Below, in pieces: positions 9,666 through 47,719 of a stretch of 58,142 bases of DNA. The stretch covers positions 1-58,142 of IMG/VR virus record IMGVR_UViG_3300013129_000001. One strand, given 5' to 3'. Position 1 is the stretch's first letter, and every line of letters begins with the position of its first letter. Made by a program: the position numbers and the translations under genes. This DNA is from a virus. The notes below the pieces were generated by a model. That model had not been told where the DNA came from. It did not search any database and worked only from the letters and a program-made list of their open reading frames with translations.

Positions 9666-9694
9666 ATTTCACCCCTTTATTCTATTCTTCCTAC

Positions 9695-9723
9695 ATTATA
9701 CATACGAACCCAATAATTTTCAA
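9695..9723 (-). promoter_or_regulatory. Sigma70-type promoter for the homing endonuclease
   Basis: On the minus strand: TTGAAA (complement of 9718-9723), a 17-base spacer, TATAAT (complement of 9695-9700), preceded directly by TG. It lies 30 bases upstream of the start at 9665, just beyond the capsid operon terminator. The strongest promoter match in the minus-strand part of the window. Confidence 0.75.
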
Positions 9724-9738
9724 GATAAAAGTGCAAAA

Positions 9739-9768
9739 AAGAACCCCTAGATTTCTCTAGGGGTTCTT
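9739..9768 (-). terminator. Rho-independent terminator after the major capsid gene
   Basis: 13-bp perfect stem (9739-9751 with 9756-9768). On the minus strand the loop is GAAA, a stable tetraloop, and the hairpin runs into a T-run (complement of 9735-9740). Located 27 bases after the stop of the gene ending at 9795. Confidence 0.9.
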
Positions 9769-9794
9769 GGTTTTCAACTATAGATTACTGACGA

Positions 9795-22300: not shown

Positions 22301-22753
22301 CAATTCTATTCTCTTCTTCATCTTGTCAAAGTATTTTTTTACCTCTCTGTCCTTGCATTCGTTTTCAAAATCATTCATCGAGAAATAGCTATAAAAATCA
22401 ATAGAGGCAGCAACCTTGGGTTCATTCTCATAGAAGAATCTAGCCCACTGATATTGCTCTAACCTCTTGGACGGAATTTGCCAATTGATCGGAGTATGAA
22501 CCGGAGAGAAAAACTGAGGCTGACCGTAAACGATGCCAGAATTAGCACCGGCAAAACGATTAAAACCAGAGCCAAAAGCCCCGTGAACAGAGGTTGTAGG
22601 AGCATAATTCTGGTTAGGAATAGACTTATAATCGGGGGTATACGGAACACCATTCTCCCTCATTTTAGAGGGATCTTGATTCCTTATGGCTCGGAATGTA
22701 GAATCCAAATCATTAGTTTGGATGACTGGACCATTACTACCGCTGTCTGCCAT
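19367..22753 (-). CDS. Portal protein interrupted by an intein and fused to a C-terminal PD-(D/E)XK-like nuclease domain
   Basis: 1128 residues as encoded, about 760 after splicing. The portal part, residues 1-394 and 763-870, contains SPVHTPINWQIP, a small CEHCGGSG/CEHLGG knuckle, LNPDYVEVY, RTPGYERLTPEV, KYGEGGYTRYGVGMVRRLFPIL, and the join GEGPNF + SNAAVGIEAM, which matches portal proteins of large phages. An intein covers residues 395-762. After a Gly/Pro/Met-rich linker the last 140 residues read CERQLMDRI ... GSIEYPIDFAFPHLKIAIEADGETFH ... RDIKLAQVGWTVLRFTDSEI. This is the D - ExD - 'R..G..V.RF' pattern of DUF559/Vsr-like endonucleases. A portal carrying a nuclease domain is unusual. 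The ATG at 22753 has a good ribosome-binding site (gggagag), with a TGTATAAT box 40 bases further up. Confidence 0.85.
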   Translation of the reverse strand: MADSGSNGPVIQTNDLDSTFRAIRNQDPSKMRENGVPYTPDYKSIPNQNYAPTTSVHGAFGSGFNRFAGANSGIVYGQPQFFSPVHTPINWQIPSKRLEQYQWARFFYENEPKVAASIDFYSYFSMNDFENECKDREVKKYFDKMKKRIELSKWLRLVSHEVHLLGDCFPFIEISCEHCGGSGRTGDELCEHLGGTVRRIVILNPDYVEVYTSPMNPEPVIALKPDEELVNMVQRRTPGYERLTPEVRTLVAAGKPIRLDNRNVYHLKYGEGGYTRYGVGMVRRLFPILSYKTKLMVAQWIVAERLIVPIKIVKVGSDERPAGPADIAAVQEQLAQTANDPNLTIVTHHAFELDWYGAAGKVLTLSNEFELINQEILDGMMINNALLNGEGPNFCLSDDTRILTDNGLKYRKELDIEKDLIATFNKDTGALEYQKATKRYEYDHDSINGDSKPLKHFKTNRIDMLVTDNHRMLYAPREIHNRKEGFGKWSVIEASDVKLRGKFRACVDKWESKTDDKVEYFGIKTEDFLQIIGWYISEGSRHKDSQRNNKIYSVDISQSPTANPDVYEKMKKVLSANNVCKIYPSVKNSFAISNSDNRDLVSYLVNNCGQLSNEKHIPKDIKNMSVDALKILLGALVECDGSERPATKKKATDKKYYSYTTVSTQLRDDVIEILFKIGYSPRFATIKFDSPNLQTQYTISWTDTENGKFPVLDSRKWNGYNKPQSQNEVITDEDYIGKVWCVEVPNHFIITERSGLFGIHGNSNAAVGIEAMIERLQTFRREVANWVEQKIYLPEAQRQGFIDENAESEEEEYIYPKIKWNSMHLRDQQQFRTFVLQLYEKGLLSAQTVLEAFDFDPDQEIERKRYDAIQMAALGQGMGAAGGAGGMPGGAMGGGFGGGMPPMPGGEAGGLGGPPGGGMGEAPISAPGGDVGAGAAPGAPPMATTKNTITSENNMADPSNYGGRILKKKTRERMDAEKQKTYKQVQSRPDVPEAPGMMGARDAKGRIVFTKCERQLMDRISEYSQNGLIRYPMTPQFPVKFGSIEYPIDFAFPHLKIAIEADGETFHSSPKQLAHDKERDIKLAQVGWTVLRFTDSEIEDQSERVMSTILKTIMQKEASLEKQKTLVK
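20468..21571 (-). other. Intein with LAGLIDADG endonuclease in the portal gene
   Basis: 368 residues. It starts at Cys395 in GPNF/CLSDDTRILTDNG (block A). Block B is VTDNHRMLYAP. The endonuclease motifs are LQIIGWYISEGS and ILLGALVECDGS. It ends with VWCVEVPNHFIITERSGLFGIHGN, followed by extein Ser. The penultimate residue is Gly instead of His, a variant seen in many phage inteins. The reading frame is intact, and extein junctions restore GEGPNFSNAAVG. The splice site lies in the most conserved stretch of the portal, as usual for inteins. Confidence 0.93.
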
Positions 22754-24084: not shown

Positions 24085-24291
24085 TTACTCTTTTCTCTCA
24101 AACCCACTTGGTGACGGCCTATCCTTATATTTCAAATGAGGTCTTATATCCTCTAACTTTTTGATAACCTTTTTAATGGCCGTTTTTGTCTTTCCTATAT
24201 TATTCCTATCTAAATGCTCTAAAGCCTCTTTTAGGCCATCGTATGCCTTTTCCATGTCATCGGCTAGGGTGGCTATACGATAGATCTTCAT
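24085..24291 (-). CDS. Small MKIYRIA-start protein
   Basis: 68 residues, start MKIYRIATLADDME, then a charged helical region (AYDGLKEALEHLDRNNIGKTKTAIKKVIKKLEDI). The first residues resemble the NWYKKA tag in position and pattern (aromatic-basic-x-Ala) and the start of the gene at 38805 (MKIYKIAAG). It overlaps the upstream stop by one base and is followed at once by the next gene. Function unknown. Confidence 0.6.
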   Translation of the reverse strand: MKIYRIATLADDMEKAYDGLKEALEHLDRNNIGKTKTAIKKVIKKLEDIRPHLKYKDRPSPSGFERKE

Positions 24292-25271
24292 TAATCGATC
24301 TGTCCCAAATGCTTTTTGAGTTCCTCGCCAAAATCTTCAGAAATTCCCATAGTTGGATTCTTATGAAGAACGAATTCAAATCTTCCCTTTTCCTTGCCGC
24401 GAATTTTTTCTTTTCGATCCTCATTAGCCTGTTTGATTTGTTCCCCAACAGTCTTATCGGGAACATTACCGAAATCAAAAACTTCTCCCTTGATTCCGGG
24501 CTGGGCATTCATGGATTCTGTCGGGAATACTTTACGGCCGGGAAGGATTTCTTTACCTTCCATAGCAGCTATCTTTTCCTTTTGCCACTCCTCATGCCTT
24601 GTCTTTTTTGAAGCTTCTTTTTCGGCATTTTCTCTCTTTAGTCTCGATCCAGTATCTTCTACTGTGCTTTCGGCTAATTTTTCAATAGCTAAAGGATCTG
24701 AAATACTATTCTGTCCTCTGGCAACCTTAAATTCGGAATTAGCAAAATAATCTTCTCCTCCGCGAATGGGTACGATTCCGCTCATGGTCGGCTTCTCTGC
24801 CAACCTAGAGGCATCCTTACCCTCTGCCTTCCACTTAGTCTTTTCATGACTGACGGCTATCTTTTCGTCAATCTTAAAAGCATCAACAACTAGTTTTGGG
24901 GCTTCGGCTTCAACGGTCGATGCAGTCTTAATCATACCCGAAGAAGATGCTTCAACGACCAAATCAGATGGATTAATAGACTTGAATTTAGACATATCCA
25001 TTCCACATACTATTGCATACTCTTTGAGTTCCGATTTTACAGAATTAGACCACTTTGAACTATAATGGTATGGCTTCTTACTGACAGCACAGGATTCAAT
25101 TCTGTCTTTTTCTACAACCATATCGTCGTCAGAAATATCACACGACAATGAGGCAAGTCGCTTAATCTCCTCTGTACTTACGGTTTCTTTATCAATGTAC
25201 TGAGACGCCTGTTTGTTCCGAAAAATCCACTCCGGAGCCATCTTCTCTTCTGCCATTCTACTTATTTTCAT
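24291..25271 (-). CDS. Unknown charged head-operon protein with MKISRMA start
   Basis: 326 residues, start MKISRMAEEKMAPEWIF with a ribosome-binding site (aaagga). The sequence is rich in Glu, Lys and Ser and is probably partly disordered. It contains several hydrophobic-Lys-x-Ala strings (MIKTAST, EKIAVS, IEKLAES) and a C-terminal region with KEILPGRKVFPTESMNAQPGIKGEVFDFG. No enzyme motif. It lies between the AAA+ ATPase gene and the portal region. Composition resembles scaffold-associated or processed internal head proteins. Function inferred only from context. Confidence 0.5.
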   Translation of the reverse strand: MKISRMAEEKMAPEWIFRNKQASQYIDKETVSTEEIKRLASLSCDISDDDMVVEKDRIESCAVSKKPYHYSSKWSNSVKSELKEYAIVCGMDMSKFKSINPSDLVVEASSSGMIKTASTVEAEAPKLVVDAFKIDEKIAVSHEKTKWKAEGKDASRLAEKPTMSGIVPIRGGEDYFANSEFKVARGQNSISDPLAIEKLAESTVEDTGSRLKRENAEKEASKKTRHEEWQKEKIAAMEGKEILPGRKVFPTESMNAQPGIKGEVFDFGNVPDKTVGEQIKQANEDRKEKIRGKEKGRFEFVLHKNPTMGISEDFGEELKKHLGQID

Positions 25272-25313: not shown

Positions 25314-28300
25314 CTACTTTGGTATAATCATTGTAAAGCCCCAATGATATGTGCAAATTCCGTTTTCATCAACGGGGGCACCCGGCCACGGAGCATCTGG
25401 CTGTTTAACATTAGTCTTGGCGAGATTCTTTGCCTCAACCTTTTTGTCTGCCTCAACAGAAAGATCAAACTCTCCCTTTTCATTAATAAAGCCATTCTTC
25501 TTCAGGTAATTGTAGAAATAATCAGTGGATGACTGAATAGTTTCTTCCTTTTGCTTTTCTTTCATCATTGATCCCGGAGACGGAACCTTCTTCTGCTTCT
25601 CTTTGCCCTTTTCCTCTGGCGATGGAGTAGCTTTGGCAGGCTCTGGTGTATCGGGAAGATCTAATTCATCTGCTTCCTCTCCCTCCGGAATCAGTGGTTT
25701 TACATCAAATCCACTTTCACTGAGATCTTTCATTTCCTGAGCCGGTGTCTTGCCTCCCTTAGGAACCCAAACTGTCTTCATCCTGCCGGTGGCAGGATCC
25801 TTTTGCTGAACATACTCTCCCTCTTCGTCTTCTTCCTTTTTCTCTCCCTCAGGAGATTCGCCCCGAGCCATTTTTTCAAACTCATCGGGCAATGTTAAAA
25901 TGGTTTTTTCGTCTTTGGTAAACGGGTTAACATATGTCTTTGGCACCAGCTGCCCACCCTTGTCAAAAAACTCCTTAAGTTTTTCATTTACTTGGGTAGA
26001 CCTTCTTGTGGACATTTGCAAAAACCCTCTGTTGATATTATTGCATCCACCAGCGGTAGTGTGAACATATTCAGCAGCCTCAATAAAATTTTCGGTTGTT
26101 GCCGGAGCTCCACTTACTGTTTTTTGTAACCCCTCTCCAATGTTCTCAACACTTAGTCTCCAAGACGCATCTTGCTGCCACATTTCAATCATCATTTGTT
26201 TCAGGGTTCGGAAGTCAACAGCTCTTTCTTCGTCATCGGATCGTGCAGCAAATATTTCGGACACCTTATCCCAATCAATTCCGGGATAAACCTTGCCGTC
26301 CTTAGACTTACCACCGAAAAGAATTAACTCCGTCGTTCTCCATCCGTCCATAACACCTTCCGGAGTATCATCAGTAATAGTAGCTGGATCTATTTCGCCA
26401 ATATCGGTGTCTGACACAAACCAAGGATGATAAGGATCCTTTCTTTTTTCAACATAGTAATTGTTCAAGAAAAACTTCTTATAATCTTTGGGCTTATTCG
26501 GCAACTTAACCTCTTGAACCTCTGCTCTTGAAACCAATGCGTTGTTGATATTCTCTAGTGCATTAGTGGTCATAACAAAATAGACATTATTCTGTTTAAA
26601 TGCCTTTTCGTTTTCAGTGTTGTCGAAAAACTTAAGAAGTTCAGCAATAATATGCTGAGTGGTTTCATGAGCTTTCTCGCCGCTTCCGGGACCAGAATTT
26701 GATACTACCTGCTTATCTATTTCGTCAAAAAGGAATATAAGATCTCTGGATGATCGCATCGTAGAAAACAATTTTCTTGCGTTAGCTTCTGTTTCTCCCA
26801 ACCACATACTCTTCTGATTTCCCATATCAACGGCCTTAATCTTAAGACCCAATAAGTTCGCCAACGCCTCAGGCCAAACAGATTTACCAGTTCCGGGACG
26901 ACCCCAAAGAATATAAAAATGAGGAAATTGATGAGCAGACAATGATTCCAATTGCAATCTCAAATTCTTGTTATAATTGGACAATGCCTGTTTCCTCTTC
27001 TGCTTTTCCTGTACTTGGGGAGTGGCTAATCTCTTTGGATCGTTCTGAGGTAGTTTCTTTTGGATATTCAATTGGTAGTCGATTTGTGCCATTTCTTCTT
27101 CATTGGCCGCAATCTGGTCAGTCAGTTTTTTGACCTTAACTCCCATGGCACCAATTTGAGGAACTCTTGTACCCCATGGACTGTCTTCACCAGTTCGATA
27201 TGAATAGTTTTCAAATAATACATTGGGCTTAACGTCCGTCAAACCAAGAGAACCAGTTCCGTGTATCTCATTAACCGTTGTTTCGAGATTATCCTTAACA
27301 ATAGCCTCGTCAAAAGAGAATTCGGGATCAATGAGATCGTCATCATATTTTAGTCCGGCCTTCAGGGACTCTCTAGTAACAGCAATAGCATCTTTTACAC
27401 TCAGTCCCTGAATGCTATTAATCATGCTTCTCATCAATTTTTCAGATATTGTTCCAAGCGATGAAGACATGGCTTCTGTTTTTTCATTGACCATCTTTTC
27501 TTCTTGATCTCTCTCCATTTTCCACTTAACTTCTTCGCTGGGATTCTCTTTTAGTTTTTGAGAGTAATCATCACTAATTTCCTTATATAGACGCCTCTTA
27601 TACTTCAGCTGTGCCTCTTTGCCATATTTTCTAAGAATATATTTTAAAATGATTCTAGCTTCGGGATCGGTAACAGCACTAACGCCCATATCTATCGGAG
27701 TAGAGTTAGAGGGCAAGTCGTCAATTGGATCTGACGAAATAACAACTACGGTTCTATTGCCCCTTTCGGTTCTGGCCTGACTATCATCTCTCAATAACCC
27801 AGAATCATTTTTACCAACGGCGGTCGATAACAATCCTCTGGTAGCATTGTCAGATAGCGTTGTTTTCTTACTGCTTGGATCTTTAACGCAGAGAGCAGAC
27901 TGGTCAAAGTCATCCAATATAAGAACCTTATTTTGTGATACCACTCCCTCTTTGATTGTATTGTGTAACTGAACAAATCTCCCCTTGATGGTCGTTATTA
28001 TGTTGTTGTAGACCTTCAATCTCTCTTCTTGAACGGGATGATCTGGACTACCCAAATACTCAACAAACTCGTCCCTAACATCAGACAAAGATTGTTTAGA
28101 AGGATTCCAGTTAATCAATTTGGTTCTAAGGGTTTGAACAGCCGTAAGCACTGCCTCTATATGTTTGGAAGCACTGCTTCCAACACCCTTGGGTCCTGCG
28201 AGAACTTTCTTGTACAAATCTTCGCCCGACTTAAGAACATCAGCCTGAGGATTAAAACTGAGAAAACCATCGTTATCTCTGGCAGACACATTGAGAACCC

Positions 28301-29210
28301 TATCTGTCGTAATATATTCACCAATATTGGTATCAAGAGCTATCCTTGCTTTTCTGGCTTGATCCATTTCAAATTCTCTTTGCCTCTTTTTGTCGTTGAT
28401 TTGTTCTTTAGTAACCCTTATCTGATCTTTCTTTTTGGCTTCCGAAAGATTGGCGTCTTCATTTATTTCCTTAATACGCTGAACAAGAGTTCTAATTTCC
28501 TGATTAACATTATTGATGTGAACAGTATGTTGATCTTTAATTCTCTGTAGTCCGGCCTCATATCGGGCAACATTTAGTCCAAGAGGAGAACGCTCTGGAG
28601 GGGTTGGGACAAAACCCTCTGGAGGATGCACTTCGTTTTGTAACTCTTTTGCATATTCTCCCGGCTTACCTATAAGTTGTGAAACTCTCGTATGTTCTGC
28701 ATCCTTATTATTGGGGTCATGATACTTATATATCGATCTGAGCCATTCTCGTGTAATCTTGGTTCTACTGCCATTAAGTAATTCATCCAGTCTAATGCGG
28801 GAAGGCTGAACGTGTTGAGCAACACCCGGAATCGGAACCCTAGTAAAATATTCTGACGGCACAAAATAATAGTCGCTATGCTCTTCGGATCGGAAAAGAT
28901 CGTTACTCTTAGCAGGAAAGGCCTTCAATAGCAATAGCTCTATCAAGGGGTGATATCCATTCCGATAAATCAAATTAACCATTCCGATGGATCCCTTTAG
29001 TTTCGAAATGATAGATTGGTAATTGGGGAGCTTTAACAACTCATTCATCATGGGAAGTTGTTCTAGCGGGTCTTGTTCTTCGGAAGCAGAAGGATCGTTG
29101 AAATCAATGAAATTTCCAAGGACAGCCGTTTTCTTTATCTTCTGATCTTTAGGTTGTGATAGAGACTGGAAAAACTTATCCAAGCTGGCATTTAAGTTAT
29201 GGCACTTCAT
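25314..29210 (-). CDS. Large AAA+ ATPase (two-module) in the head operon
   Basis: 1298 residues. The second module is a clear AAA+ domain: Walker A GRPGTGKSVW (Lys776), LGLKIKAVDMGNQKSMWLGETEANARKLF, Walker B LIFLFDEID (Asp829-Glu830), sensor 1 VYFVMTTNALENI and arginine-finger region VSRAEVQEVKLP. An earlier degenerate module is suggested by LAGPKGVGSSASKHI (about residues 335-350, no Walker Lys), VLILDDFDQSALC and NRTVVVISSDPIDDLP. Coiled coils lie at about 220-290 and 680-760. The C-terminus is Pro/Glu/Lys-rich with a final globular end (HWGFTMIIPK). It is followed by structural genes and preceded by a second AAA+ gene. A remodelling role in head assembly or injection, or a role in the host, is open. 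Upstream lies a TGTATAAT box at 29333-29340. Confidence 0.75.
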   Translation of the reverse strand: MKCHNLNASLDKFFQSLSQPKDQKIKKTAVLGNFIDFNDPSASEEQDPLEQLPMMNELLKLPNYQSIISKLKGSIGMVNLIYRNGYHPLIELLLLKAFPAKSNDLFRSEEHSDYYFVPSEYFTRVPIPGVAQHVQPSRIRLDELLNGSRTKITREWLRSIYKYHDPNNKDAEHTRVSQLIGKPGEYAKELQNEVHPPEGFVPTPPERSPLGLNVARYEAGLQRIKDQHTVHINNVNQEIRTLVQRIKEINEDANLSEAKKKDQIRVTKEQINDKKRQREFEMDQARKARIALDTNIGEYITTDRVLNVSARDNDGFLSFNPQADVLKSGEDLYKKVLAGPKGVGSSASKHIEAVLTAVQTLRTKLINWNPSKQSLSDVRDEFVEYLGSPDHPVQEERLKVYNNIITTIKGRFVQLHNTIKEGVVSQNKVLILDDFDQSALCVKDPSSKKTTLSDNATRGLLSTAVGKNDSGLLRDDSQARTERGNRTVVVISSDPIDDLPSNSTPIDMGVSAVTDPEARIILKYILRKYGKEAQLKYKRRLYKEISDDYSQKLKENPSEEVKWKMERDQEEKMVNEKTEAMSSSLGTISEKLMRSMINSIQGLSVKDAIAVTRESLKAGLKYDDDLIDPEFSFDEAIVKDNLETTVNEIHGTGSLGLTDVKPNVLFENYSYRTGEDSPWGTRVPQIGAMGVKVKKLTDQIAANEEEMAQIDYQLNIQKKLPQNDPKRLATPQVQEKQKRKQALSNYNKNLRLQLESLSAHQFPHFYILWGRPGTGKSVWPEALANLLGLKIKAVDMGNQKSMWLGETEANARKLFSTMRSSRDLIFLFDEIDKQVVSNSGPGSGEKAHETTQHIIAELLKFFDNTENEKAFKQNNVYFVMTTNALENINNALVSRAEVQEVKLPNKPKDYKKFFLNNYYVEKRKDPYHPWFVSDTDIGEIDPATITDDTPEGVMDGWRTTELILFGGKSKDGKVYPGIDWDKVSEIFAARSDDEERAVDFRTLKQMMIEMWQQDASWRLSVENIGEGLQKTVSGAPATTENFIEAAEYVHTTAGGCNNINRGFLQMSTRRSTQVNEKLKEFFDKGGQLVPKTYVNPFTKDEKTILTLPDEFEKMARGESPEGEKKEEDEEGEYVQQKDPATGRMKTVWVPKGGKTPAQEMKDLSESGFDVKPLIPEGEEADELDLPDTPEPAKATPSPEEKGKEKQKKVPSPGSMMKEKQKEETIQSSTDYFYNYLKKNGFINEKGEFDLSVEADKKVEAKNLAKTNVKQPDAPWPGAPVDENGICTYHWGFTMIIPK

Positions 29211-34366: not shown

Positions 34367-34942
34367 CTACATGTGTGATTTTGCGATTTTGTACCAATTG
34401 CGTCGACTTCCCAAAAGCTCCATGTCGCTTTCGGGTATGTCATAAGATGGTTCTGGCGTCTCAATTTTTCCCTTTGCCTTAGCGGGCTGTTGGGGAGAGG
34501 GGGCAACAACCTTCTTCGGTTCAATAACAACATTGGGAGGAGTCGGAGCAGAAGTAGATTGAGCTGCCGGAGATGTAGCATCTTTTCCGGGGGCTCTTTT
34601 ATTATCGGCAACCACCTTGTAACCCTTTTTGAAACCAGTTAAAAACGCAACGATTTCGTCAAAAATATAAAACGCAGGATTCTTGTCTGCACCAAAATAT
34701 TTAGGATGAATACTTAATGTTCCACCAATGGCACCGCTCCATCCAATAAGGGAATGCTTGCCATCCGTATACCTATAGATTCTTAAGACATACTCTTTAT
34801 TCGACTGCTTACCCTCGGGATTAATGCCAATCATTGTAAGCCTAGTGCTTCGTATATATTCAGTATGGTTGTTGGGATAGCGATCCATTGGGAAACTCGG
34901 TAAATCCCCCGGCATTTTAGAAACTGCTGTTTTTATCGTCAT
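34367..34942 (-). CDS. Unknown protein ending in a tag-like NWYKIAKSHM
   Basis: 191 residues from ATG 34942 (GGGGAG site 9 bases upstream); in-frame upstream ATGs at 34948 and 34987 lie deeper in the previous gene. The body holds PSFPMDRYPNNHTEYIRSTRLTM, EYVLRIYRYTDGKHSLIGWSGAIGGTLSIHPKYFG, a beta-type domain, then a Pro/Ala linker (about 125-165). The last residues are GSRRNWYKIAKSHM. The MNWYKKA-type tag therefore stands at the C-terminus, the only such case here. It may be the remains of the start of a lost or frameshifted downstream gene. Confidence 0.55.
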   Translation of the reverse strand: MTIKTAVSKMPGDLPSFPMDRYPNNHTEYIRSTRLTMIGINPEGKQSNKEYVLRIYRYTDGKHSLIGWSGAIGGTLSIHPKYFGADKNPAFYIFDEIVAFLTGFKKGYKVVADNKRAPGKDATSPAAQSTSAPTPPNVVIEPKKVVAPSPQQPAKAKGKIETPEPSYDIPESDMELLGSRRNWYKIAKSHM

Positions 34943-35273
34943 GATCATTTTCTCCCCATGGGTCTTGGAATTCCACGAACCCACCACGCTTTGTCTTCTG
35001 CTCTTCTTTTTTCTGTTTTTCCTGTTGTTTCTTAGAACCTTCTAGATTTTCCGAAACAAATTGCCATGCTATTCTGTTGGAATTCAAAAAATCAATCAAC
35101 TCATCTTTCTTGTCTTCATCAAATTCAAAATAACATCCGCGAGATCCCCACTTGCGACTCCATTTAACTCCCGATGGAACAATCAGATCAACTCCTATTT
35201 CTTCTATTTCATGAAGAGTTTTTTGACTCAACTCTGCATAAATTTCCACTCGCATTCCCCCATATTCAATCAT
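34917..35273 (-). CDS. Unknown small protein
   Basis: 118 residues, ATG 35273 overlapping the previous stop (ATGA). IEYGGMRVEIYAELSQKTLHEIEEIGVDLIVPSGVKW and CYFEFDEDKKDELIDFLNSNRIAWQFV suggest a small alpha/beta fold, followed by a Lys/Glu/Gln-rich tail. No family recognised. Part of a run of coupled small genes (35737 to 33343). Confidence 0.5.
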   Translation of the reverse strand: MIEYGGMRVEIYAELSQKTLHEIEEIGVDLIVPSGVKWSRKWGSRGCYFEFDEDKKDELIDFLNSNRIAWQFVSENLEGSKKQQEKQKKEEQKTKRGGFVEFQDPWGENDHDDKNSSF

Positions 35274-35766: not shown

Positions 35767-38682
35767 CTATCTATTTTCCCTTGTCCCATTAAAGTATACT
35801 ACAATACCCTTATGAGCAAATGACAATTGGTTATCGCCAACCCGAATGCCGGTAACTCCTAGCTTCTCTGCCATAACGCTACCCATTCTGACAATCTGAT
35901 CGTATTTACCTCCGGCAAAAACAATACCGTCACGACCCGAAGACTCACAAATAATATCCTTGAAATGATAGGCGTTGCATACGTCCTTGGAAACGTCAAT
36001 AACATCATTAATTATGGATTCTTGTTGAGGCAAACTGAATAAGTCGTCTGCAATTTTATCAATTTCTTTTTCTACGCTTTTCTTCTGAAGATGTTTTTCC
36101 ACTCGCTCAATTAACTCTTCGCTAATGTCAGGAGACGATATCCACACGGCGAAAATATCTTCTTCTCCAATATTCCCACAATGAAACACCAATATCTTAA
36201 AAGAACCGTCTGGGAAAATACTATCTATAATTGGCATAACATCTTCGGTTGCTATAAAACGAGTGCTCTTAATCTGTTTCTTTACTATCTTGGATTTTGC
36301 AACCGACAATATGGCAATAACATGGGCAACCTCCGGATCAACACTCATGGACGAAGAAGCAAATCTTTTTGCGGGGTGAGTATTGCCATAATCCCTAGTC
36401 ATATCCTCGTATAGTTGGGGCTGGAATCTCGGTTCAATCCATCGATAATAAAATCCCTTAAGATCATAAGTGGGATTATAGCGTAGCTGTTTTTTAATCC
36501 AGTCTTCTTCTTGGCTAAAATCCTCATCTCTATCGTCCCAAGCCATAACCCTATCGCCAAGTCCCGGTATTGTGTTGCCATCAGAGATAGACAGATTATT
36601 CATCCATCCAAAAAGAGTGGCAGTCTTCACCACTTTAGATTGCGCATTCTTATTCATTCTATCGTCAGCTGACGACTTTTTAAGAGGAACCATCAGGGGT
36701 TTGGGTCTCTTTTCATCTAATAGCCCCTCTATGGTCGTATATGCCCTATCTTCGTCCCACCCTTCCGACAACAGTTCTTCAATACTTGCCTTGGGATCTA
36801 ATTGCTTGTCATGTCGAGTATATTTTCGCAGTTGTTCTTCAAGGATGTCGTGCTCTTGGCTTAAATCACGTGGCAACGGAGACATATATTGTCTACTCAG
36901 CCTTTTTTCTATTGATATACTTTGATCCTGTTGGGCTATCATAGACCAAGGTGACAAACCCTCATCAGAATGTAAACCTGTTGGAAAGCGTCCCTGAATA
37001 TCAGAGCCTATAGGTCTTTCCATATAAGACTGGGGGATATAGTAGCTTAATTGTGCTGTTTTGTACCAATTTTTACTACGAGCATGTCTTTGCCTGTTAG
37101 TAACAACGAGAGGAGAAAATTCATTTCCCTTGCCCTTCGCCTCTAAATCTTTTCGGTACATCTCGTTTATCTGTGGTAGCGCCCATTTCACAAATGCCTG
37201 CTCTCCCTGCCCTGATGGTCCTTCGCCCATATTGCCCTTAGCGTGAATTGCTTCGTGTACAATAGTTCCTCCTAGATGTAAAACAGCTATCCACTGCCAA
37301 ACATCAGGATCTACAGCCTGCATTTCCATTGCATCCTGTTTCGATGCAGACAGGACAGAATTCATATTAATGCCTATCGCTGTTCCACCTTTGGATTCAA
37401 GATCGGCATACAGTGTGTCAATATCTCTCTGGATTTGTTCGGGAGTTTTATCCATGTCCTTTTTAGGAAATGCCGTTAGACCTTCTCCGGTCGTTTTTAT
37501 TTCATATCCTTGTTGCTCCAGTTTTTTTGCTAGAGCCTTTGTTTTTATCGCCCTATCAAGAGCAGATAAATAAACACCGTAAGCTCCACTCTTAGCAAAA
37601 TTAAAGATAAAAGAAATGTTCATTAACAGGGACGAGTTAAATCTATTGACCATATTAACGGCTTCATGGGCTTTGCCAAACATAGATTCGATCTGAGATG
37701 CTTCTACCGATGTAGTTCCTAAAAACTGCGTGGCATATTCTGGGACGGTACCTGTAAAATATCCCTCAAAATTTTGTGATACCTTGGTCATTCTTGTATT
37801 ATCATTGCCCAATAGCTCTGCCAAATTTTCGTCTATAGCAGAAGGGGTCTCGGATACGTCCTTGCCCTGTTCTGTCCCCTGCCAATTCTTCCAATAGTTT
37901 TTGTCAAAATCCCAATTCTCTGGTGTTGCTTCTGGAGGAATATATTCTATAGATTTATCGTCAACATATCTTTTCTTTTTGGCATTTTCGATGAAAAGAT
38001 TCAAGACCTCCATCGCTCGTGATGCACTCAGTTGCGTTCCGTCATCTTCCTTGTTTCGAATCAATTTTGGCGTATCCCGTGTTCCAGTTTCAACATGTGT
38101 AATTTGATAAAATATTTCATGACCAATAATGTTGGGTTTGGGCTCAACATGAACATCCAAAATTCTGGCATCAGCAAGTCCTATTTCCGGTATCTTCCTT
38201 CGTGTTAACCTAACGTGAGCTTGTATTTTGCTCTTCATTTTTTCAAGTTCCTGCTCGGCAATGGTATGTGGCAAAGTAATATTTAGACCAAAAACAGTAT
38301 CCAAAAAATCGTATAAATCATTCGTGACGCTTTCATTATCTGCAAATGTCCACTTAGCAACATCTTTTAGATCATTCATCGCCTTAGACATAAGTTTATT
38401 GAAAGAGAACGACACGGTTGCCCCTTCATATGTATATGGAGAAAAAGATTTTACGGAAACACTAACGAACAATTGATAAGTGGGTATGACCGAAGAAATA
38501 GTAGGAGAAGAAACTACTCCCAAAAACCTACGATACAACAGAGATTCTGTATCTACCTTGTCCCATCCCGTAGTAGCCTCTTTCCAAACAATACGACCCT
38601 GTTTTTGAGCCGTTCCAAAAAAACCGAATATTTTGGGATCAAGTATATTCTCTTGAGACTGAGATATTTTCTTGATATTCAT
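35767..38682 (-). CDS. 971-residue multi-segment protein with HExxH motif and internal tag
   Basis: Start MNIKKISQSQENI, ribosome-binding site taggga. The first half ends in a metallopeptidase-like segment WQWIAVLHLGGTIVHEAIHAKGNMGEG, with HEAIH at residues 476-480 and Gly-Glu-Gly after it. At about 537 the sequence SKNWYKTAQLSYY repeats the N-terminal tag of the plus-strand genes, and at about 680 NKNAQSKVVKTATLFGW gives a second motif. Three pieces (1-535, 540-680, 682-971) therefore look like separate tagged proteins joined in one frame, which could be cut apart by the phage protease. The middle piece has Tyr/Pro/Arg-rich segments with YMERP and YMSPLP; the third has a C-terminal GIRVGDNQLSFAHKGIVVYFNG. 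No overall family recognised. Confidence 0.6.
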   Translation of the reverse strand: MNIKKISQSQENILDPKIFGFFGTAQKQGRIVWKEATTGWDKVDTESLLYRRFLGVVSSPTISSVIPTYQLFVSVSVKSFSPYTYEGATVSFSFNKLMSKAMNDLKDVAKWTFADNESVTNDLYDFLDTVFGLNITLPHTIAEQELEKMKSKIQAHVRLTRRKIPEIGLADARILDVHVEPKPNIIGHEIFYQITHVETGTRDTPKLIRNKEDDGTQLSASRAMEVLNLFIENAKKKRYVDDKSIEYIPPEATPENWDFDKNYWKNWQGTEQGKDVSETPSAIDENLAELLGNDNTRMTKVSQNFEGYFTGTVPEYATQFLGTTSVEASQIESMFGKAHEAVNMVNRFNSSLLMNISFIFNFAKSGAYGVYLSALDRAIKTKALAKKLEQQGYEIKTTGEGLTAFPKKDMDKTPEQIQRDIDTLYADLESKGGTAIGINMNSVLSASKQDAMEMQAVDPDVWQWIAVLHLGGTIVHEAIHAKGNMGEGPSGQGEQAFVKWALPQINEMYRKDLEAKGKGNEFSPLVVTNRQRHARSKNWYKTAQLSYYIPQSYMERPIGSDIQGRFPTGLHSDEGLSPWSMIAQQDQSISIEKRLSRQYMSPLPRDLSQEHDILEEQLRKYTRHDKQLDPKASIEELLSEGWDEDRAYTTIEGLLDEKRPKPLMVPLKKSSADDRMNKNAQSKVVKTATLFGWMNNLSISDGNTIPGLGDRVMAWDDRDEDFSQEEDWIKKQLRYNPTYDLKGFYYRWIEPRFQPQLYEDMTRDYGNTHPAKRFASSSMSVDPEVAHVIAILSVAKSKIVKKQIKSTRFIATEDVMPIIDSIFPDGSFKILVFHCGNIGEEDIFAVWISSPDISEELIERVEKHLQKKSVEKEIDKIADDLFSLPQQESIINDVIDVSKDVCNAYHFKDIICESSGRDGIVFAGGKYDQIVRMGSVMAEKLGVTGIRVGDNQLSFAHKGIVVYFNGTRENR

Positions 38683-40881: not shown

Positions 40882-41712
40882 TCAGATCTTAATAAAGGCA
40901 TCGCTAACATCGTCGTCGTCGTCATTGTCTTTTTCTGTGTTAACGAAAGCGTCCTTTGTTTTATCTTGTGCCTTCTCTTCTGACTTCTCTTTTCTATCAA
41001 TAAACGGGTCAACATCACGAACAGCAGCTGCCTCGGGGAGAATACTGTTGACTAATCCGACCTTTTCTGTCCCCGCCTGAGTAGAGATAACGGCTTTGCG
41101 ACCCATTTGTTCAGAGGCATCTAGTTTTGATTCATCAATCTTTGTATCTGGCAGAATAATATCCTCTTTTTCTTCTCTTTCGAGTTTCTCCATGGCCTCA
41201 AGAGACGCCTGAGTTCTTTCTGATTCGGGCAGTTCATCAATGGCACTACGAGTCATATGCCCCTCTTTTGCGCCATTAAGAGTTCCGATAACCACTCTCG
41301 ATCTCATCTGTTGCGTTCTAGACTCTGCCGCGGAAACCCTACAATGTTCTTCTTTGGCTAATGCGTCTTTTACCACAGGACCTTTAGGCTTGTTTTTGGA
41401 TCCTTTTGGACGACCACCCTTATTCTTCTTGACTTCAGCAGTCTTTGTTTCTGCATCTTGTGTCGCAGAAGGGTTGGCTGTATTTTCTTTGGCAGTTAGA
41501 GAGGACAAAGTATCTAGAAAAGATGGCCTATCGTCTGAGGATTCCACCTTAATAATATCCAGTAATCCTGCCTTGACCAGCCCGGTTAGTTCATTCATGT
41601 GGTCATCATTGGCAATATTCAAAATCGCAGTAACTTTTCCGCGTATAGGAACGCCAATTTTATTCAGATTAATGACGACATCTGTTTTACCAACAACAGT
41701 TACCTTTTTCAT
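40882..41712 (-). CDS. Protein with AT-hook-like motif and acidic tail
   Basis: 276 residues from ATG 41712 (MKKVTVVGKTDVVINLNKIG), chosen for its strong AGGAGG site; the in-frame ATG at 41772 precedes it. Residues 1-70 are a small beta domain with a KVTAILNIANDDHMNELTGLVKAGLLDI segment. About residues 95-120 read KKNKGGRPKGSKNKPKG, a typical AT-hook-like DNA-minor-groove motif. The rest is charged and probably disordered, ending in a run of five Asp. It may bind DNA during packaging, since the terminase gene lies upstream in the same operon, but this is inference. Confidence 0.55.
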   Translation of the reverse strand: MKKVTVVGKTDVVINLNKIGVPIRGKVTAILNIANDDHMNELTGLVKAGLLDIIKVESSDDRPSFLDTLSSLTAKENTANPSATQDAETKTAEVKKNKGGRPKGSKNKPKGPVVKDALAKEEHCRVSAAESRTQQMRSRVVIGTLNGAKEGHMTRSAIDELPESERTQASLEAMEKLEREEKEDIILPDTKIDESKLDASEQMGRKAVISTQAGTEKVGLVNSILPEAAAVRDVDPFIDRKEKSEEKAQDKTKDAFVNTEKDNDDDDDVSDAFIKI

Positions 41713-41780: not shown

Positions 41781-41978
41781 TTATTTTACAGAATCCAGAG
41801 TAACACCCTGAGAATCAAGGTATTTTTTGACCCTGCTTACAAACTGATAGTGTTCGGAGGGGGTAAAATGAGCGATCTGAAGAATGTCTTGAAACTCTTT
41901 ATTGGCAGATGCTAAATCGTCACCAGTAAATTTGTCAACAAAGGAGTTAAAAGCCTTGTTTACTTTTTGTTTATCTAG
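41781..41978 (-). CDS. 65-residue extension frame reached by -1 frameshift (no own start codon)
   Basis: The -1 frame continues from CTA at 41978 for 65 codons (LDKQKVNKAFNSFVDKFTGD ... FVSRVKKYLDSQGVTLDSVK) to TAA at 41783-41781. It reads like a folded helical domain, and it has no ATG, GTG or TTG. A slip at A-AAA-AAC would give a 613-residue fusion with the upstream protein. The alternative is an ancestral or sequencing indel in the nine-A run that split a single gene. Confidence 0.6.
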   Translation of the reverse strand, partial: LDKQKVNKAFNSFVDKFTGDDLASANKEFQDILQIAHFTPSEHYQFVSRVKKYLDSQGVTLDSVK

Positions 41979-43621
41979 TTTTTTTTTGAGACCGCTTCTA
42001 CAACGATATCAAAATCAGAGGATGCGACTGGATTTATTTTATCCTCTGACTTCGGCATTTCGAGAGATAATGCATCGGCTGGAATGGCAGTCTCTATCTG
42101 TGATGGTGCGTTGGATTGAGTAACTACATCGACGGGTATATCTTCATCTTCGTACACCTCAGGAGGCTTATCCTCGGCAAATTCGCCACGACCCTCAATA
42201 TAGTCCTCTTGCATTTTTGCCAGTTCCTCATCCGTCATCTGTATCTCGTCTGGGTCTGGAGGCATTTTTTCTGCTTCTTCAAGTTCTCTTTCTGTTTCGT
42301 CTAAAATTTCTTCGGCAGACATAAACCTCTCTCTTTGGATCTCGGCGTTCTGTTCAGGAGTAAGATATTCATTGTATTCGATATTGGGCATACCCTCTGA
42401 TGCTAGTTCTGGCATAGGAGTTCCAACCATAAAACTGACTTCTCCCCTAGATATATCAGTAAGGTCAAGAGATTCGGGTTCAATAAAAATACCCGGATGA
42501 TTCTTTTTAACGAAGGCAATGATACTTTCTACAATCTGAGGTTTGTTTTCTTCCGTAACCGTAGTGTTAATCCCGATTCTCCCAATAGACATGGGTGTTC
42601 CGGCTACATCTTTATCTTCAAAACTAATTTCCTCTAAAACAGGATCCTCTTCTATATCTGGAACATCTGCCATAGGAGCAGCGTGAGATTTTGGAGCCTC
42701 TTGTCCAGATTTTTCAGCAATATCAGCAAACTGTTCACCTGCCACGCGAAGCTTTATCTCTCCTCTTCCACCCTCTTCGTTCACACCGCTAAAGTCTTCT
42801 GGAGAAATAAGACGGGCGAGCTCTGGTTTTACATCTACAACTTTTTTGTAAGCAGCCTCTTTGATTTTATCTTCGTCGCCTCTGACTTCGGGGGGCAAAT
42901 CGTCAACGTCATAGGAAAGAACCATATAAACACCACTTAGGTAGGGTTTATTGGGGTTGGGTAGAAAACGAGACTTTGTTACCGTCATTGCGAAGCTTGG
43001 ATCGCCGGAAGGAGCAGTCTCTTCTACAACTTCAAAATCTTCTGGAGTCTTAGGAAGATTTTTGGGAATACCAGTATCAGTAACGCCCTCGTCTTCCTCT
43101 TCTTCGGCCTCTCCCCATCGAGGCTTATCAAACTTCATTTCGTCAACTTTGTCTTCGGGATCGTCAAAATCCTCATCGCCCTTGGCCGCTAGTGTCGTTT
43201 TTTTTTCTGTGGACGCTAATTTCAAACCATCAGGACTTTTAACGCCTTCCCACCATCGGAGCTGCTTGCCAACCTGAGATGCCGCTTCGTATTTTTCTTT
43301 TTCGGCAGGATCACCACTTAGCCTCTGCTCTTCAAGTTTATTCATGTCGCCTTCATGAGCAGCGGGGTTGCGATACTTATTGGCAAATTTAGGCTTATGA
43401 GTATCAAGTCGCTTTTCTGTTACTTCGGTTTCCTCTCCAGTGCGGTTATTCTCCAATAGTTTTTCGATGGTAACATCAGCTTCAGTAGCCCTATAAGACT
43501 CTAGTTGTTTTTCATTGATAACATCGGGAATGTTTCCCCTAGATTCATTCAATCTCATGTCAATATGCTGACTACCATCAATTTTCTGGTAGGTCTTTAA
43601 ATTGAATTTCTTTTCGCTCAT
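41975..43621 (-). CDS. Acidic protein with TEAQL-type repeats; frameshift donor
   Basis: 548 residues, ribosome-binding site aaggag. Residues 30-80 hold three degenerate repeats (VINEKQL, VTIEKLL, EVTEKRL). With ENNRTGEE these resemble the repeats in the protease/scaffold protein (EGNRTGTEP plus ITERQL). LKLASTEKK matches the Lys-x-Ala-Ser motif. The middle has a small repeated alpha/beta unit (SGVYMVLSYDVDDLPPEVRGDEDKIKEAAYKKVV; and SIGRIGINTTVTEENKPQIVESIIAFVKK). The C-terminal third is very acidic. The frame ends in a run of nine A followed by C and TAG, which forms the heptamer A-AAA-AAC in the register needed for a -1 slip. Confidence 0.7.
   Translation of the reverse strand: MSEKKFNLKTYQKIDGSQHIDMRLNESRGNIPDVINEKQLESYRATEADVTIEKLLENNRTGEETEVTEKRLDTHKPKFANKYRNPAAHEGDMNKLEEQRLSGDPAEKEKYEAASQVGKQLRWWEGVKSPDGLKLASTEKKTTLAAKGDEDFDDPEDKVDEMKFDKPRWGEAEEEEDEGVTDTGIPKNLPKTPEDFEVVEETAPSGDPSFAMTVTKSRFLPNPNKPYLSGVYMVLSYDVDDLPPEVRGDEDKIKEAAYKKVVDVKPELARLISPEDFSGVNEEGGRGEIKLRVAGEQFADIAEKSGQEAPKSHAAPMADVPDIEEDPVLEEISFEDKDVAGTPMSIGRIGINTTVTEENKPQIVESIIAFVKKNHPGIFIEPESLDLTDISRGEVSFMVGTPMPELASEGMPNIEYNEYLTPEQNAEIQRERFMSAEEILDETERELEEAEKMPPDPDEIQMTDEELAKMQEDYIEGRGEFAEDKPPEVYEDEDIPVDVVTQSNAPSQIETAIPADALSLEMPKSEDKINPVASSDFDIVVEAVSKKN
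41978..41984 (-). promoter_or_regulatory. Slippery heptamer A-AAA-AAC next to a stop codon
   Basis: The minus strand reads tca aaa aaa aac tag in the zero frame. The heptamer fits X-XXY-YYZ and the stop is the next codon. I see only a weak possible stem downstream (AACAAGG with CCTTTGTT, one bulge), so any stimulator is uncertain. Confidence 0.55.
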
Positions 43622-43692: not shown

Positions 43693-45447
43693 TTATCTCC
43701 ACCCCGTTTTAACCAGTACGGGCAAGGGAAGTGCCATATGGACGCTTTCCGAAGCCATTGCAGATGCTCCCGCAAGACAATCTACTAAATCGTCTGTTTT
43801 TACTTCGCCATGTTTATCCGTAACCAAACTTATTCCTCTCATAGTTGGACGATATTTCAAAGCCTTCATTTCCAGAATAAGCCTAGAGTCATCATATAGC
43901 CATAATTCTGGTTGTGGATAGTACGACATCATATCCTTAAGGTTTTGGTAAATCTTGTTTTTGAAAGGTCTATTGTAGGCAGTCTGGATTGTATTGACTC
44001 CGTGACTTCTTAACAACTGAAGACTATGAATGGAATTCCATTGATCGTAAGAAACCGACATAGGATGGAACGTTGCACAAATCTGGATCATTTGCCTGTC
44101 TATTTCGTTGAACAATAATCCGATTCCGGGTTCTGGCTCCCAAATCCACAAATTAGCTAGGCGAACTCTAATTCTTTGCTTTCCAAGATGGTTTGTGTAG
44201 TATTCTTTGGCTACTAAAACGGCTACATATTTGTTTCCATTATTAGCTGGGTCAACATGAAGATAATAGTTAAACCTTGGCTGAGGACGAGAATGTAACG
44301 ACAAATCAGATCGTATACATCTGTCAACAAGTCCGGCTTCAAAATAATTACCGTAGGTTCCTGATTTCGCCCATTGAGCACCATATTCAATAGCGAATCC
44401 ATCTGGATTTCTTTTTCTCTCTTCCTCCAGAGATTCGTAGGGGATATCCTTATTAACACACCATGTCGGCAGTTGAAAAGACAAAATATGATTCGCCGTC
44501 TTTGCGTTTCTATACAAATCATAGAAAATACCGGCCATGGTACTCGGAGTTGATATCTCTACTAATCTGGCATCACCGAATTTCTTGAATTTTTTAATAG
44601 AGGGTTCTAGGGCGGTATAAAAGGCTGAACCCGGAGTTTTTCCCGTTTCATCATAGAACGCCAATTCGTCAAAGAGAATAAGTACAGCACCTTTGCCACG
44701 GAGAGTATCGGGATTACTATGCCCACAGAGAACGACAACAGATCCCTTTGATTCGAGGGGTGACTTTCCCGATTTCTTAGCCTTTAGATCTTCGTCCGTA
44801 TAAAGTCGTATCTCTGTCGTAGTGGCGTTAGAAATTCGATTACGGAAGAAGGGTCCGTCCATAATACGTTGCCGAATCATACTGAATAAAGTGCCAGCCT
44901 GATCCTGCGATAGAGCCACGTTAATAATATGGATATCTTCTCCCTTGGGTATGCCATAAAACTTATGGGGATCTCCGTTGCCAATGGTCAGAAGCTTATA
45001 GGCTTCGTATGCGGAAATGATAGAGGCTAATATCGTTTTCGTGCCTCTTCGACCTACGCAGAGATGTAGTTCAGAAAAGTTAAATCCCTCTTTTTCTTTT
45101 TTGAGCAACTTGGCTATGACCTGATCAATGTTTTTTTCATAGGTAATTCCATCCCTAACCTCATCTTTGTTATTGTCATAAAGCCATTGCCACTCTTCGG
45201 GGGTTAGCTTAAGATTTTCATTTCCCCTTGTTCCCATATAGAAGGACTTCAGAATAACCCTCTGGGGCAACCATAGATCTAGATTGGACGCCGGAGTATT
45301 AAGTAAATCAGATCGATTGCAAAAGGTAATAATGTCAACAATATCATTTTTACTACCAGACTTATCCTGTATAGCATCGCCACTATTAATTTCCCGAATA
45401 GCATCCAATAAAGGATTCTTCTTAATATCATCTATTTTCTTTTTCAT
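43693..45447 (-). CDS. terL: Terminase large subunit
   Basis: 584 residues. The ATPase part has the Walker-A-like LHLCVGRRGTKTILASI (Lys137; the GRRGTKT form replaces the usual GxxGKS/T), the strand EDIHIINVALSQDQAGTLF, and Walker B AVLILFDELAFYDE with coupling motif VEISTPST. The nuclease part begins at FNYYLHVDPANNG, with the first metal Asp, and ends with KTDDLVDCLAGASAMA, with the late Asp pair. This RNase H-like nuclease cuts concatemeric DNA while the ATPase pumps it through the portal. It overlaps the NHL gene upstream by ATGA. No small terminase subunit is evident in the window. Confidence 0.9.
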   Translation of the reverse strand: MKKKIDDIKKNPLLDAIREINSGDAIQDKSGSKNDIVDIITFCNRSDLLNTPASNLDLWLPQRVILKSFYMGTRGNENLKLTPEEWQWLYDNNKDEVRDGITYEKNIDQVIAKLLKKEKEGFNFSELHLCVGRRGTKTILASIISAYEAYKLLTIGNGDPHKFYGIPKGEDIHIINVALSQDQAGTLFSMIRQRIMDGPFFRNRISNATTTEIRLYTDEDLKAKKSGKSPLESKGSVVVLCGHSNPDTLRGKGAVLILFDELAFYDETGKTPGSAFYTALEPSIKKFKKFGDARLVEISTPSTMAGIFYDLYRNAKTANHILSFQLPTWCVNKDIPYESLEEERKRNPDGFAIEYGAQWAKSGTYGNYFEAGLVDRCIRSDLSLHSRPQPRFNYYLHVDPANNGNKYVAVLVAKEYYTNHLGKQRIRVRLANLWIWEPEPGIGLLFNEIDRQMIQICATFHPMSVSYDQWNSIHSLQLLRSHGVNTIQTAYNRPFKNKIYQNLKDMMSYYPQPELWLYDDSRLILEMKALKYRPTMRGISLVTDKHGEVKTDDLVDCLAGASAMASESVHMALPLPVLVKTGWR

Positions 45448-46322
45448 GTTCGTTCCAGAATTAACAAATCTCTTTTAGAATTCACATCAATAGCGTCTAT
45501 ATTGGATGAGGAATAGATAACGCCATTACTCTTATCGTTTAGTGCGATGTAATGTATCTGATTGTCGTTCTTGATATATATAATTCGGTTGCTGTATTTA
45601 ATCTGAGAGGGAGAAGATAAATCCGACTTCAAAGGATGCCCTAAGACAATTTTAACGGAACGTCCAATAATTTCTCTTAGACAGTGATTACCGCAATCTG
45701 CAATATACAAAGACTTATTAATACACTTAACTCCTCTGGGATGAGATAAGGAATAAGACGAAAGATTATTCGATGTCCCAAAATTCGATCTTCCGTTTCC
45801 TACATAATTGGAAATGGTTGAAAATTCAGAATCCATTCTAAAACACCTATGTAAATCTCTGACTGACCAATATAAATTACCATATTCGTCTGCATCACAA
45901 TGTGTTTCTGATAAATTCCTGTTAGAACATTTGGAGAAATAGGAATTTAAATTATAATTTTCAGATTCCCCCAAAACAGGATCTACATAATGACGCCCCA
46001 AATCTAGGCGACGAATTCGACTACCACCCTTTTCAAGTAAATAGCAAAACTTCATATTCCTCATGTAGCAAACAGAAGATGGATACTCAAATGTCGGAAC
46101 ACTTGTATTATTATTCCCTGCAACCCCAACAACACCCATCCATGGCATATAGAACTTATTAGAACCGTCTATATATCCAATACAATGACTGTCACGGAAA
46201 AGAAATAGGAAGCCAAAACCTTCAACATATAAAAAATGCGTAATGATTAGATCGGTATCAATGTCAAAAAGTTTTTCGACTTTACTGGTGCCAAAAGGAA
46301 GTTTACACATCCTATACGACAT
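45444..46322 (-). CDS. NHL-repeat beta-propeller protein
   Basis: 292 residues. LSHPRGVKCINKSLYIADCGNHCLREI is a clear NHL repeat (PxGvxxxxxxLyvaDxxNhxIr). Other blades can be guessed: KFCYLLEKGGSRIRRLDLG, HCDADEYGNLYWSVRDLHRCFRMD, IIYIKNDNQIHYIALND. NHL propellers bind proteins, RNA or sugars. There is no signal peptide. The gene overlaps terL by four bases, so the two are translated together; a propeller next to terminase is uncommon, and the partner is unknown. Confidence 0.75.
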   Translation of the reverse strand: MSYRMCKLPFGTSKVEKLFDIDTDLIITHFLYVEGFGFLFLFRDSHCIGYIDGSNKFYMPWMGVVGVAGNNNTSVPTFEYPSSVCYMRNMKFCYLLEKGGSRIRRLDLGRHYVDPVLGESENYNLNSYFSKCSNRNLSETHCDADEYGNLYWSVRDLHRCFRMDSEFSTISNYVGNGRSNFGTSNNLSSYSLSHPRGVKCINKSLYIADCGNHCLREIIGRSVKIVLGHPLKSDLSSPSQIKYSNRIIYIKNDNQIHYIALNDKSNGVIYSSSNIDAIDVNSKRDLLILERT

Positions 46323-46328
46323 TGAATA

Positions 46329-47666
46329 CTAATCTCCAAGTGGTACTATTTCAATTTGTTTTTCTGTCAACCGGGTAACACCAAGTCCCCTTCCAAAATC
46401 AACATCAATTTCTATTATGTCGGTAAGAGGAATAACCTGTATAACCGATCCTGTTCTACCATAAATTGATTTCAGATTCGCATCGGTGCAACGAACAATA
46501 GCGTTAATATAATCCTGTTCGACGTATTTGGACGGCATCTTGGATTGGGCAACTTTAATGTTTTCAGATGGTTCAAAAATCCATATTGGTTTTTCGCCCC
46601 TGATAGAAATATCTATATTTTCTGTTTTTTGTCTGAGGCAATTCCATCCTTCTAGAGTTATAGTCTTCTCGCTAGAATCTGCATCGGGCAGCATTCCTTC
46701 TTTGGCCAAAACTAGAACTGGTGGATTTCCAATGCAAAAATGGCCAATACCTTCTACAATAGGCTTCCAATATCGCTGGTAAAAAATAACCGAGTGAAAT
46801 GGACATATATCGTGTAATTTACCAACCGGCATAATACTATCAACGCTTAAATATTCATTGATTTTGATTTTCAGAATTGGCTCATTATCAAAATCAAGTA
46901 TAGTAATAACATCGCTTTCTGGTTCCTTAATGGTATAGTAAACATCACCATGCTTATCTTCAATTGCCCGACAAATCCTCTGGGCATATTCATCAACCAA
47001 CTCGTGTTTTACTTCTGGATGCGTTACGTCTATTTTTGCCATTTCCGAATCCAAACAAGAAGCAGTAACGCCTAGAGGGGGCGAGATTGGCATTCCAGCC
47101 GGAGGTGCAGCGGGGGGCGATTGTTCTTCAGATGGTTGAAGACTAGCCTCTTCCATTTCTAATTGTTCCTCTGACTCCGATAAATCTTTGTCCTTTTCTT
47201 TGGGGAAATATTTATTGATGAGTTTTTCGTATCTGCTAACCATGCGTTTAAGATGCCCTTTATCCTTGGGATCTGTTATCTGGTCAATAATGGTGTTGAT
47301 TTCAGTAACAACCATTTTTATTTCTTGATAGACATTCTTCTTTATTTCTTCATCTTCATCAACTGAACTTTTAGACTTTTCTCTTAGGTTTTTCCATATC
47401 TTCAAATAATGGTCTGTGAGCATTTCTTCCGCTGATACATCAACAATAACGGGGCTTTCCATATCTTCTCTGGCAACCAAAAGATGATAGGGTCGTTTTA
47501 GGGCTAGTTTCCATGCGTCACGGCAAGCTTCCCACGCATATTTGTAACTAGATTTTACTGACGGCGTAAGAAAGTAATGGAAAGGAGAGGAATAAACAAT
47601 ATGGTTTGAATCGGTCTTAATATCAAAACCGTATCGTCCGCCAAATCTTGTAAGCACTATTTTCAT
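46329..47666 (-). CDS. Unknown 445-residue operon-leading protein
   Basis: I chose ATG 47666 (MKIVLTRFGGRYGFDIK) because a TGTATAAT box lies immediately upstream; an in-frame ATG five codons before it is weaker. Residues about 85-165 are helical and coiled (LREKSKSSVDEDEEIKKNVYQEIKMVV ... KRMVSRYEKLINKYFPKEKD). A Pro-rich linker (SPPAAPPAGMPISPPLG) separates it from a mostly beta C-terminal half (DVYYTIKEPESDVITILDFDNEP, GSVIQVIPLTDIIEIDVDFG). NIKVAQSKM matches the recurrent Lys-x-Ala-Gln motif. No family recognised. First gene of the transcript that carries terL. Confidence 0.55.
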   Translation of the reverse strand: MKIVLTRFGGRYGFDIKTDSNHIVYSSPFHYFLTPSVKSSYKYAWEACRDAWKLALKRPYHLLVAREDMESPVIVDVSAEEMLTDHYLKIWKNLREKSKSSVDEDEEIKKNVYQEIKMVVTEINTIIDQITDPKDKGHLKRMVSRYEKLINKYFPKEKDKDLSESEEQLEMEEASLQPSEEQSPPAAPPAGMPISPPLGVTASCLDSEMAKIDVTHPEVKHELVDEYAQRICRAIEDKHGDVYYTIKEPESDVITILDFDNEPILKIKINEYLSVDSIMPVGKLHDICPFHSVIFYQRYWKPIVEGIGHFCIGNPPVLVLAKEGMLPDADSSEKTITLEGWNCLRQKTENIDISIRGEKPIWIFEPSENIKVAQSKMPSKYVEQDYINAIVRCTDANLKSIYGRTGSVIQVIPLTDIIEIDVDFGRGLGVTRLTEKQIEIVPLGD

Positions 47667-47672
47667 AATCAC

Positions 47673-47719
47673 ATTATACAAAAAGCCCGCCTCTTACATA
47701 TTTCGTAAAAGACGGGCTT
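47673..47719 (-). terminator. Terminator of the nrdJ operon, directly followed by a promoter box
   Basis: A hairpin of 15-base arms (47683-47697 with 47705-47719, two mismatches) is followed on the minus strand by TTTTTG. The T-run passes directly into TGTATAAT (complement of 47673-47680) seven bases before the next start. One transcript therefore ends and the next may begin within about 45 bases. Confidence 0.75.

Follow-up and report, generated by a model that had tools for sequence, protein, structure and literature searches.

In Thermus thermophilus dnaX, a nine-base homopolymer allows one gene to give two products, with stop codons close by in the other frames; in living cells, nine A or T residues are enough to make bacterial RNA polymerase slip efficiently, and in dnaX this slippage is productive (PMC5009743). 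A typical slippage site is a homopolymer at least eight bases long (PMC3711429). A -1 shift at A_AAA_AAC that lacks an established stimulator has been proven in a cluster of insertion sequences (PMC4066793), and polymerase slippage and ribosomal shifting can both act at one site (PMC5009743). Among phages, the lambda gpG/gpGT tail assembly chaperone acquires an additional C-terminal domain when a -1 shift occurs close to the gene end, an arrangement conserved across diverged phages, and frameshifting gives the T3/T7 major capsid protein a C-terminally extended second form. For slippage in a phage gene, our literature search found only one isolated suggestion, the CPt10 methyltransferase (PMC2853527).

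Here we describe a locus with features of several of these systems in a viral DNA of 58,142 nucleotides (IMG/VR record IMGVR_UViG_3300013129_000001; the window). Comparative sequence evidence makes it probable that one phage gene, for a presumed structural or packaging protein, yields two products by a programmed, conserved frame transition, most likely through slippage of RNA polymerase. The locus shares with dnaX the nine-base homopolymer, the two products from one gene and the nearby stops in other frames; unlike in dnaX, where slippage leads to the shorter product, here it is the longer product that needs the shift, and dnaX is a different gene, outside phages, in which slippage is demonstrated rather than inferred. 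As in lambda, a -1 shift near the gene end would add a C-terminal domain and the arrangement persists across diverged phages, but the gene encodes an acidic repeat protein without a PHROGs or Pfam match, has an A9 site and a tail predicted to form three helices, and follows the terminase large subunit instead of lying beside a tape measure gene and belonging to a chaperone family. The likeness to the T3/T7 capsid protein lies in the extended second form of a structural protein; the protein encoded here cannot be recognised as one of the capsid, and the extension is predicted to be all-helical (pLDDT 85), not an Ig-like beta-sandwich as in capsid and tail extensions. The Shigella slippage genes mxiE and spa13, and IS1 with its ribosomal shift at A_AAA_AAC, likewise use a homopolymeric or A-rich site to give an extended product, but these are unrelated genes in other settings, and we found no sequence relationship to them.

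The zero-frame gene (41975..43621, minus strand) encodes 548 amino acids, with N-terminal repeats of the [IV]xExQL type (INEKQL, TIEKLL, VTEKRL) and an acidic, disordered C-terminus. Its 3' end reads TCA AAA AAA AAC TAG, and its product ends in SKKN. The nine-A run, our candidate slippage site, occupies 41979..41987 (minus strand) in the register TC[A AAA AAA AA]C, followed by a C at 41978 and by the zero-frame TAG at 41975..41977 (minus strand), giving A_AAA_AAC_TAG. An initial annotation of this DNA had noted nine A residues and a C immediately before TAG in an X_XXY_YYZ register, and these coordinates (41975-41987, minus strand) hold; it had also placed the gene next to terminase, as borne out by a PHROG match (E=7.8e-26) of the upstream neighbour at 43693..45447 (minus strand), the terminase large subunit, which also weakly matches TerL_ATPase. 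A model of the zero-frame product contains two confidently predicted alpha/beta domains (about residues 210-306 and 328-405), with the repeats modelled at low confidence and the C-terminal end disordered. Searches of Pfam and PHROGs returned no family for either the 548-residue protein or the tail, tblastn against phage records gave nothing for the protein and chance-level matches only for the tail, and fold searches with the protein found nothing significant. The same gene carries a second nine-A run at 43198..43206 (minus strand; GAA AAA AAA ACG, about codons 138-141), where slippage would yield a truncated product of about 143-149 residues; the matching place is also A9 in three relatives (L002, L010 and L012), and the run is absent in L005 and L008.

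Beyond the run, the -1 frame (41781..41984, minus strand) reads KKLDKQKVNKAF...LDSVK before a TAA at 41781-41783. It is open for 67 codons including the two Lys codons of the run (KK plus 65), none of them ATG, GTG or TTG, in agreement with the 65 startless codons of the initial annotation, which had counted from beyond the two Lys codons. Its suggestion that the tail is a folded domain is supported by structure prediction, which gives a three-helix bundle (helices 5-18, 24-37 and 42-59) with a mean pLDDT of 85; neither solved structures nor predicted viral ones gave a significant match to the model. When seven tails of the same length were compared, the -1 frame contained no stops and had a mean identity of 38.7%, while the same DNA, read in frame 0, gave 23.4% and 4-10 stops per tail and, read in frame +1, 20.7% and 5-16 stops. 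Changes in the -1 frame fell at codon positions 1, 2 and 3 at 0.53, 0.36 and 0.61, position 2 being the slowest. By this pattern of conservation, the tail is a conserved protein-coding sequence in the -1 frame.

Relatives were sought among IMG/VR contigs, the first (L002) being reached through its terminase, with 71% identity in the best segment, and the others by scans with alignments of the terminase, of the gene and of its N-terminus. The L002 homologue (8943-10478) ends GTA AAA AAA AAG TAG and that of L005 ends GTA AAA AAA AAT TAG; in both, a tail homologous to that of the window follows in the -1 frame. Ten more phages have this layout (L008, L010, L011, L012, L015, L087, L147, L148, L153 and L155). 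Counting L089, which is the same as L087 at the site, only once, and leaving out the contigs that end before the site (L013/L151, L088/L143 and L150), NNA AAA AAA AAN TAG followed by a homologous -1-frame tail was found in 13 of 13 distinct phages, the window and 12 others, with pairwise tail identities of 21-53%. This is the comparison of the site among relatives that the initial annotation had proposed. L152, L014 and L156 have a shorter gene or only its N-terminal part, with neither a tail nor an A run at the end. No tail accompanied the terminase in 15 records where that protein was more distant (about 30%), a scan of genome contigs found no relative of the terminase, and of 11 matches to a DNA pattern describing only the site, none had the gene or the tail.

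Conservation at the site extends to the nucleotides. The A run is nine long in 11 of the 13 phages, ten in L010 and L015, and never shorter, and it is followed by any of the four bases (G in six phages, T in four, C in two and A in one). Although the residue before the Lys codons varies (S, V, E, I or T), its codon has A at the wobble position in every phage (p about 2e-7 from codon usage, ignoring relatedness); both Lys codons of the run are always AAA (p about 1e-5, ignoring shared descent), and for the whole run of at least nine A residues, given the protein, p = 2e-12, again ignoring relatedness. The stop is likewise TAG in 13/13 although the overlapping -1 codon (Leu, Val or Ile) could end otherwise, with p about 5e-5 as a product of codon frequencies over the first nine phages only. 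Runs of at least nine A are rare: about 630 kb of nine related contigs contain 18, of which nine are the site itself and four more lie in the same gene. This rarity, together with the recurrence of site, stop and -1-frame tail in 12 other phages, places the frame transition beyond chance. To judge from these alignments, recoding is conserved here, in a protein family that neither Pfam nor PHROGs contains; a frame shift probably takes place, with two versions of the protein being made.

Under the mechanism that we place first, RNA polymerase would slip on the nine A residues so that a fraction of mRNAs carries ten A, or another number that opens the -1 frame. Ordinary translation of these mRNAs would continue in the -1 frame and give a long form that gains the 65-residue domain, predicted to be three-helical; nine-A mRNAs would give the short form, ending at the TAG directly after the run, and a +1-frame outcome a near copy of it. 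All 13 sites carry the homopolymeric A/T run of about eight to nine bases or more that marks the junction in slippage genes, here as A9 or A10. The other frames also end soon, as in Thermus dnaX, a feature that is not obligatory: the zero frame stops at once, at TAG, and the +1 frame stops 1-6 codons past the site in every phage, the latter being partly forced by an Asp codon of the tail. Polymerase slippage comes first because every site keeps nine or more A residues without a break while the base after them is free, because no Shine-Dalgarno-like (SD-like) element and, in the nine phages tested, no unusual fold accompanies the site, and because bacterial RNA polymerase slips on nine A or T, as exploited in Thermus dnaX. 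Efficient polymerase slippage at the second A9, present in four phages, would truncate much of the product, and this counts against it. A search directed at the beta subunit of RNA polymerase found none in four records, those of the 296- and 476-kb relatives among them.

The initial annotation had instead proposed a programmed -1 ribosomal frameshift at A_AAA_AAC, of which the frame transition stands, conserved in 13 phages, while that heptamer itself does not, its last base being variable, and the mechanism is doubtful. In its general form, in which Lys-tRNAs would slip in tandem on A_AAA_AAA, or slippage would occur on A_AAA_AAN, before TAG and an unedited mRNA would give the long form, as for lambda G/GT, we regard ribosomal frameshifting as the less probable explanation, though a serious one. 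The sites offer what bacterial -1 frameshifting uses, since A_AAA_AAN and A_AAA_AAA both stand in register before the zero-frame stop in 13/13 phages; Lys-tRNA motifs of the type V_VV.A_AA.R are shift-prone (PMC4066793), and shifts of this kind occur in tailed phages, in some cases apparently with no stimulator (PMC5009743). Stimulators, which are common at such sites if not obligatory, were sought here without success: the 40 nt upstream were free of SD-like motifs in all 13 phages, and downstream folding in the nine tested gave z-scores of -1.3 to +1.1, nothing unusually stable among pseudoknot-free folds. The base after the run is a pyrimidine in 6/13, and neither heptamer, taken by itself, accounts for all nine conserved A residues, two or three being left over, although slippage of tRNAs on the two overlapping heptamers can account for part of the conservation of the run. 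We hold back from a firmer preference because the nine A residues also contain both A_AAA_AAA and A_AAA_AAN, because a shift that has no established stimulator is proven elsewhere and because both mechanisms can share a site. We favour polymerase slippage over ribosomal shifting, rating it about twice as probable on what the sequences offer; tandem slippage on A_AAA_AAA, or a mixture of mechanisms, may operate instead.

That the tail is instead a separate small gene, translated by re-initiation after TAG and not as a fusion, is very improbable: several relatives do have TAG ATG, but this ATG lies in the zero frame and not in that of the tail, 11 of the 13 tails lack ATG, GTG and TTG among their first 20 codons, and the tails are conserved right from where the run ends (KK[LVI][DE]). 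That the gene is truly one continuous frame, broken by a sequencing error in the homopolymer, to which nine A residues are prone in principle, or by an indel that inactivated it recently, is even harder to credit. This reading, with a homopolymer indel as the main alternative of the initial annotation, is rejected, along with a pseudogene, by the 13-phage comparison: the 12 further phages share the shifted layout although they come from numerous distinct metagenomes, no two tails exceed 53% identity and the flanks differ, and the zero-frame stop is always TAG.

Recoding of TAG was also considered and set aside. Most TAG-ended genes of the window and its relatives are followed by short open stretches, as expected if TAG acts as a stop, which argues against its recoding, and zero-frame readthrough at the site would add only short, unconserved peptides. 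Elsewhere in the window, two pairs of neighbouring genes on the minus strand (46329-47681 with 45444-46322, and 25314-29210 with 24291-25271) share a frame, and only one TAG with a brief open stretch stands between the members of each, so that readthrough would fuse them. In L008, an in-frame TAG (8739-8741) interrupts the homologue midway, with homology continuing beyond it. The 296-kb relative (the record of L087 and L107-L116) has 46 predicted tRNAs of nearly all types; one with a CTA anticodon (L116, 17395-17469, minus strand) could read TAG, the stop codon at every site.

The genomic setting suggests a role for the gene. In the window, L002 and L005, a syntenic block runs from the terminase through the A9 gene and a gene of 246-292 amino acids to a gene for a trypsin-like protease; the window copy of the third member, 276 residues from an ATG at 41712, lies at 40882..41712 (minus strand) behind a GGAGGG-like ribosome site. 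Strict [IV]xExQL repeats occur in only two window proteins, with three copies in the A9 gene product and six in the 1842-residue product of 11547-17075 (minus strand), which includes a region resembling head maturation proteases by PHROG match. We take these repeats to resemble the cleavage motifs of T4-type prohead proteases. From this context and the shared repeats, our preferred reading is that the product of the A9 gene may help to assemble heads or package DNA, the long form being a less abundant variant that would use its tail to bind a partner. With slightly less assurance than for the explanation as a whole, we think it more likely than not that a lineage of large double-stranded DNA phages, in which tail identity is at most 53%, keeps a nine-A polymerase slippage site that sets how much of each form of a head or packaging protein is made.

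Few conserved recoding events are listed for phages, and the locus extends that list by a protein family and a genome position that are both new; if polymerase slippage is the true mechanism, it would constitute conserved programmed slippage in a structural gene of tailed DNA phages. Gene callers miss a conserved domain in the packaging region of these phages, and the site offers a directly testable means for a phage to adjust the proportion of two subunits, if that is its role.

Intein-like insertions were seen in a probable portal gene of the window (19367-22753, minus strand) and inside the terminase large subunit of L002 (6001-8859). Finally, a short MNWYKKA-like peptide is common to many unrelated window proteins, mostly near the N-terminus (open reading frames starting at 4570, 5520, 5873, 6673, 7663 and 8186), with further copies inside 35767-38682 and at the C-terminal end of 34367-34987. 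The peptide may serve as a tag for targeting or packaging.
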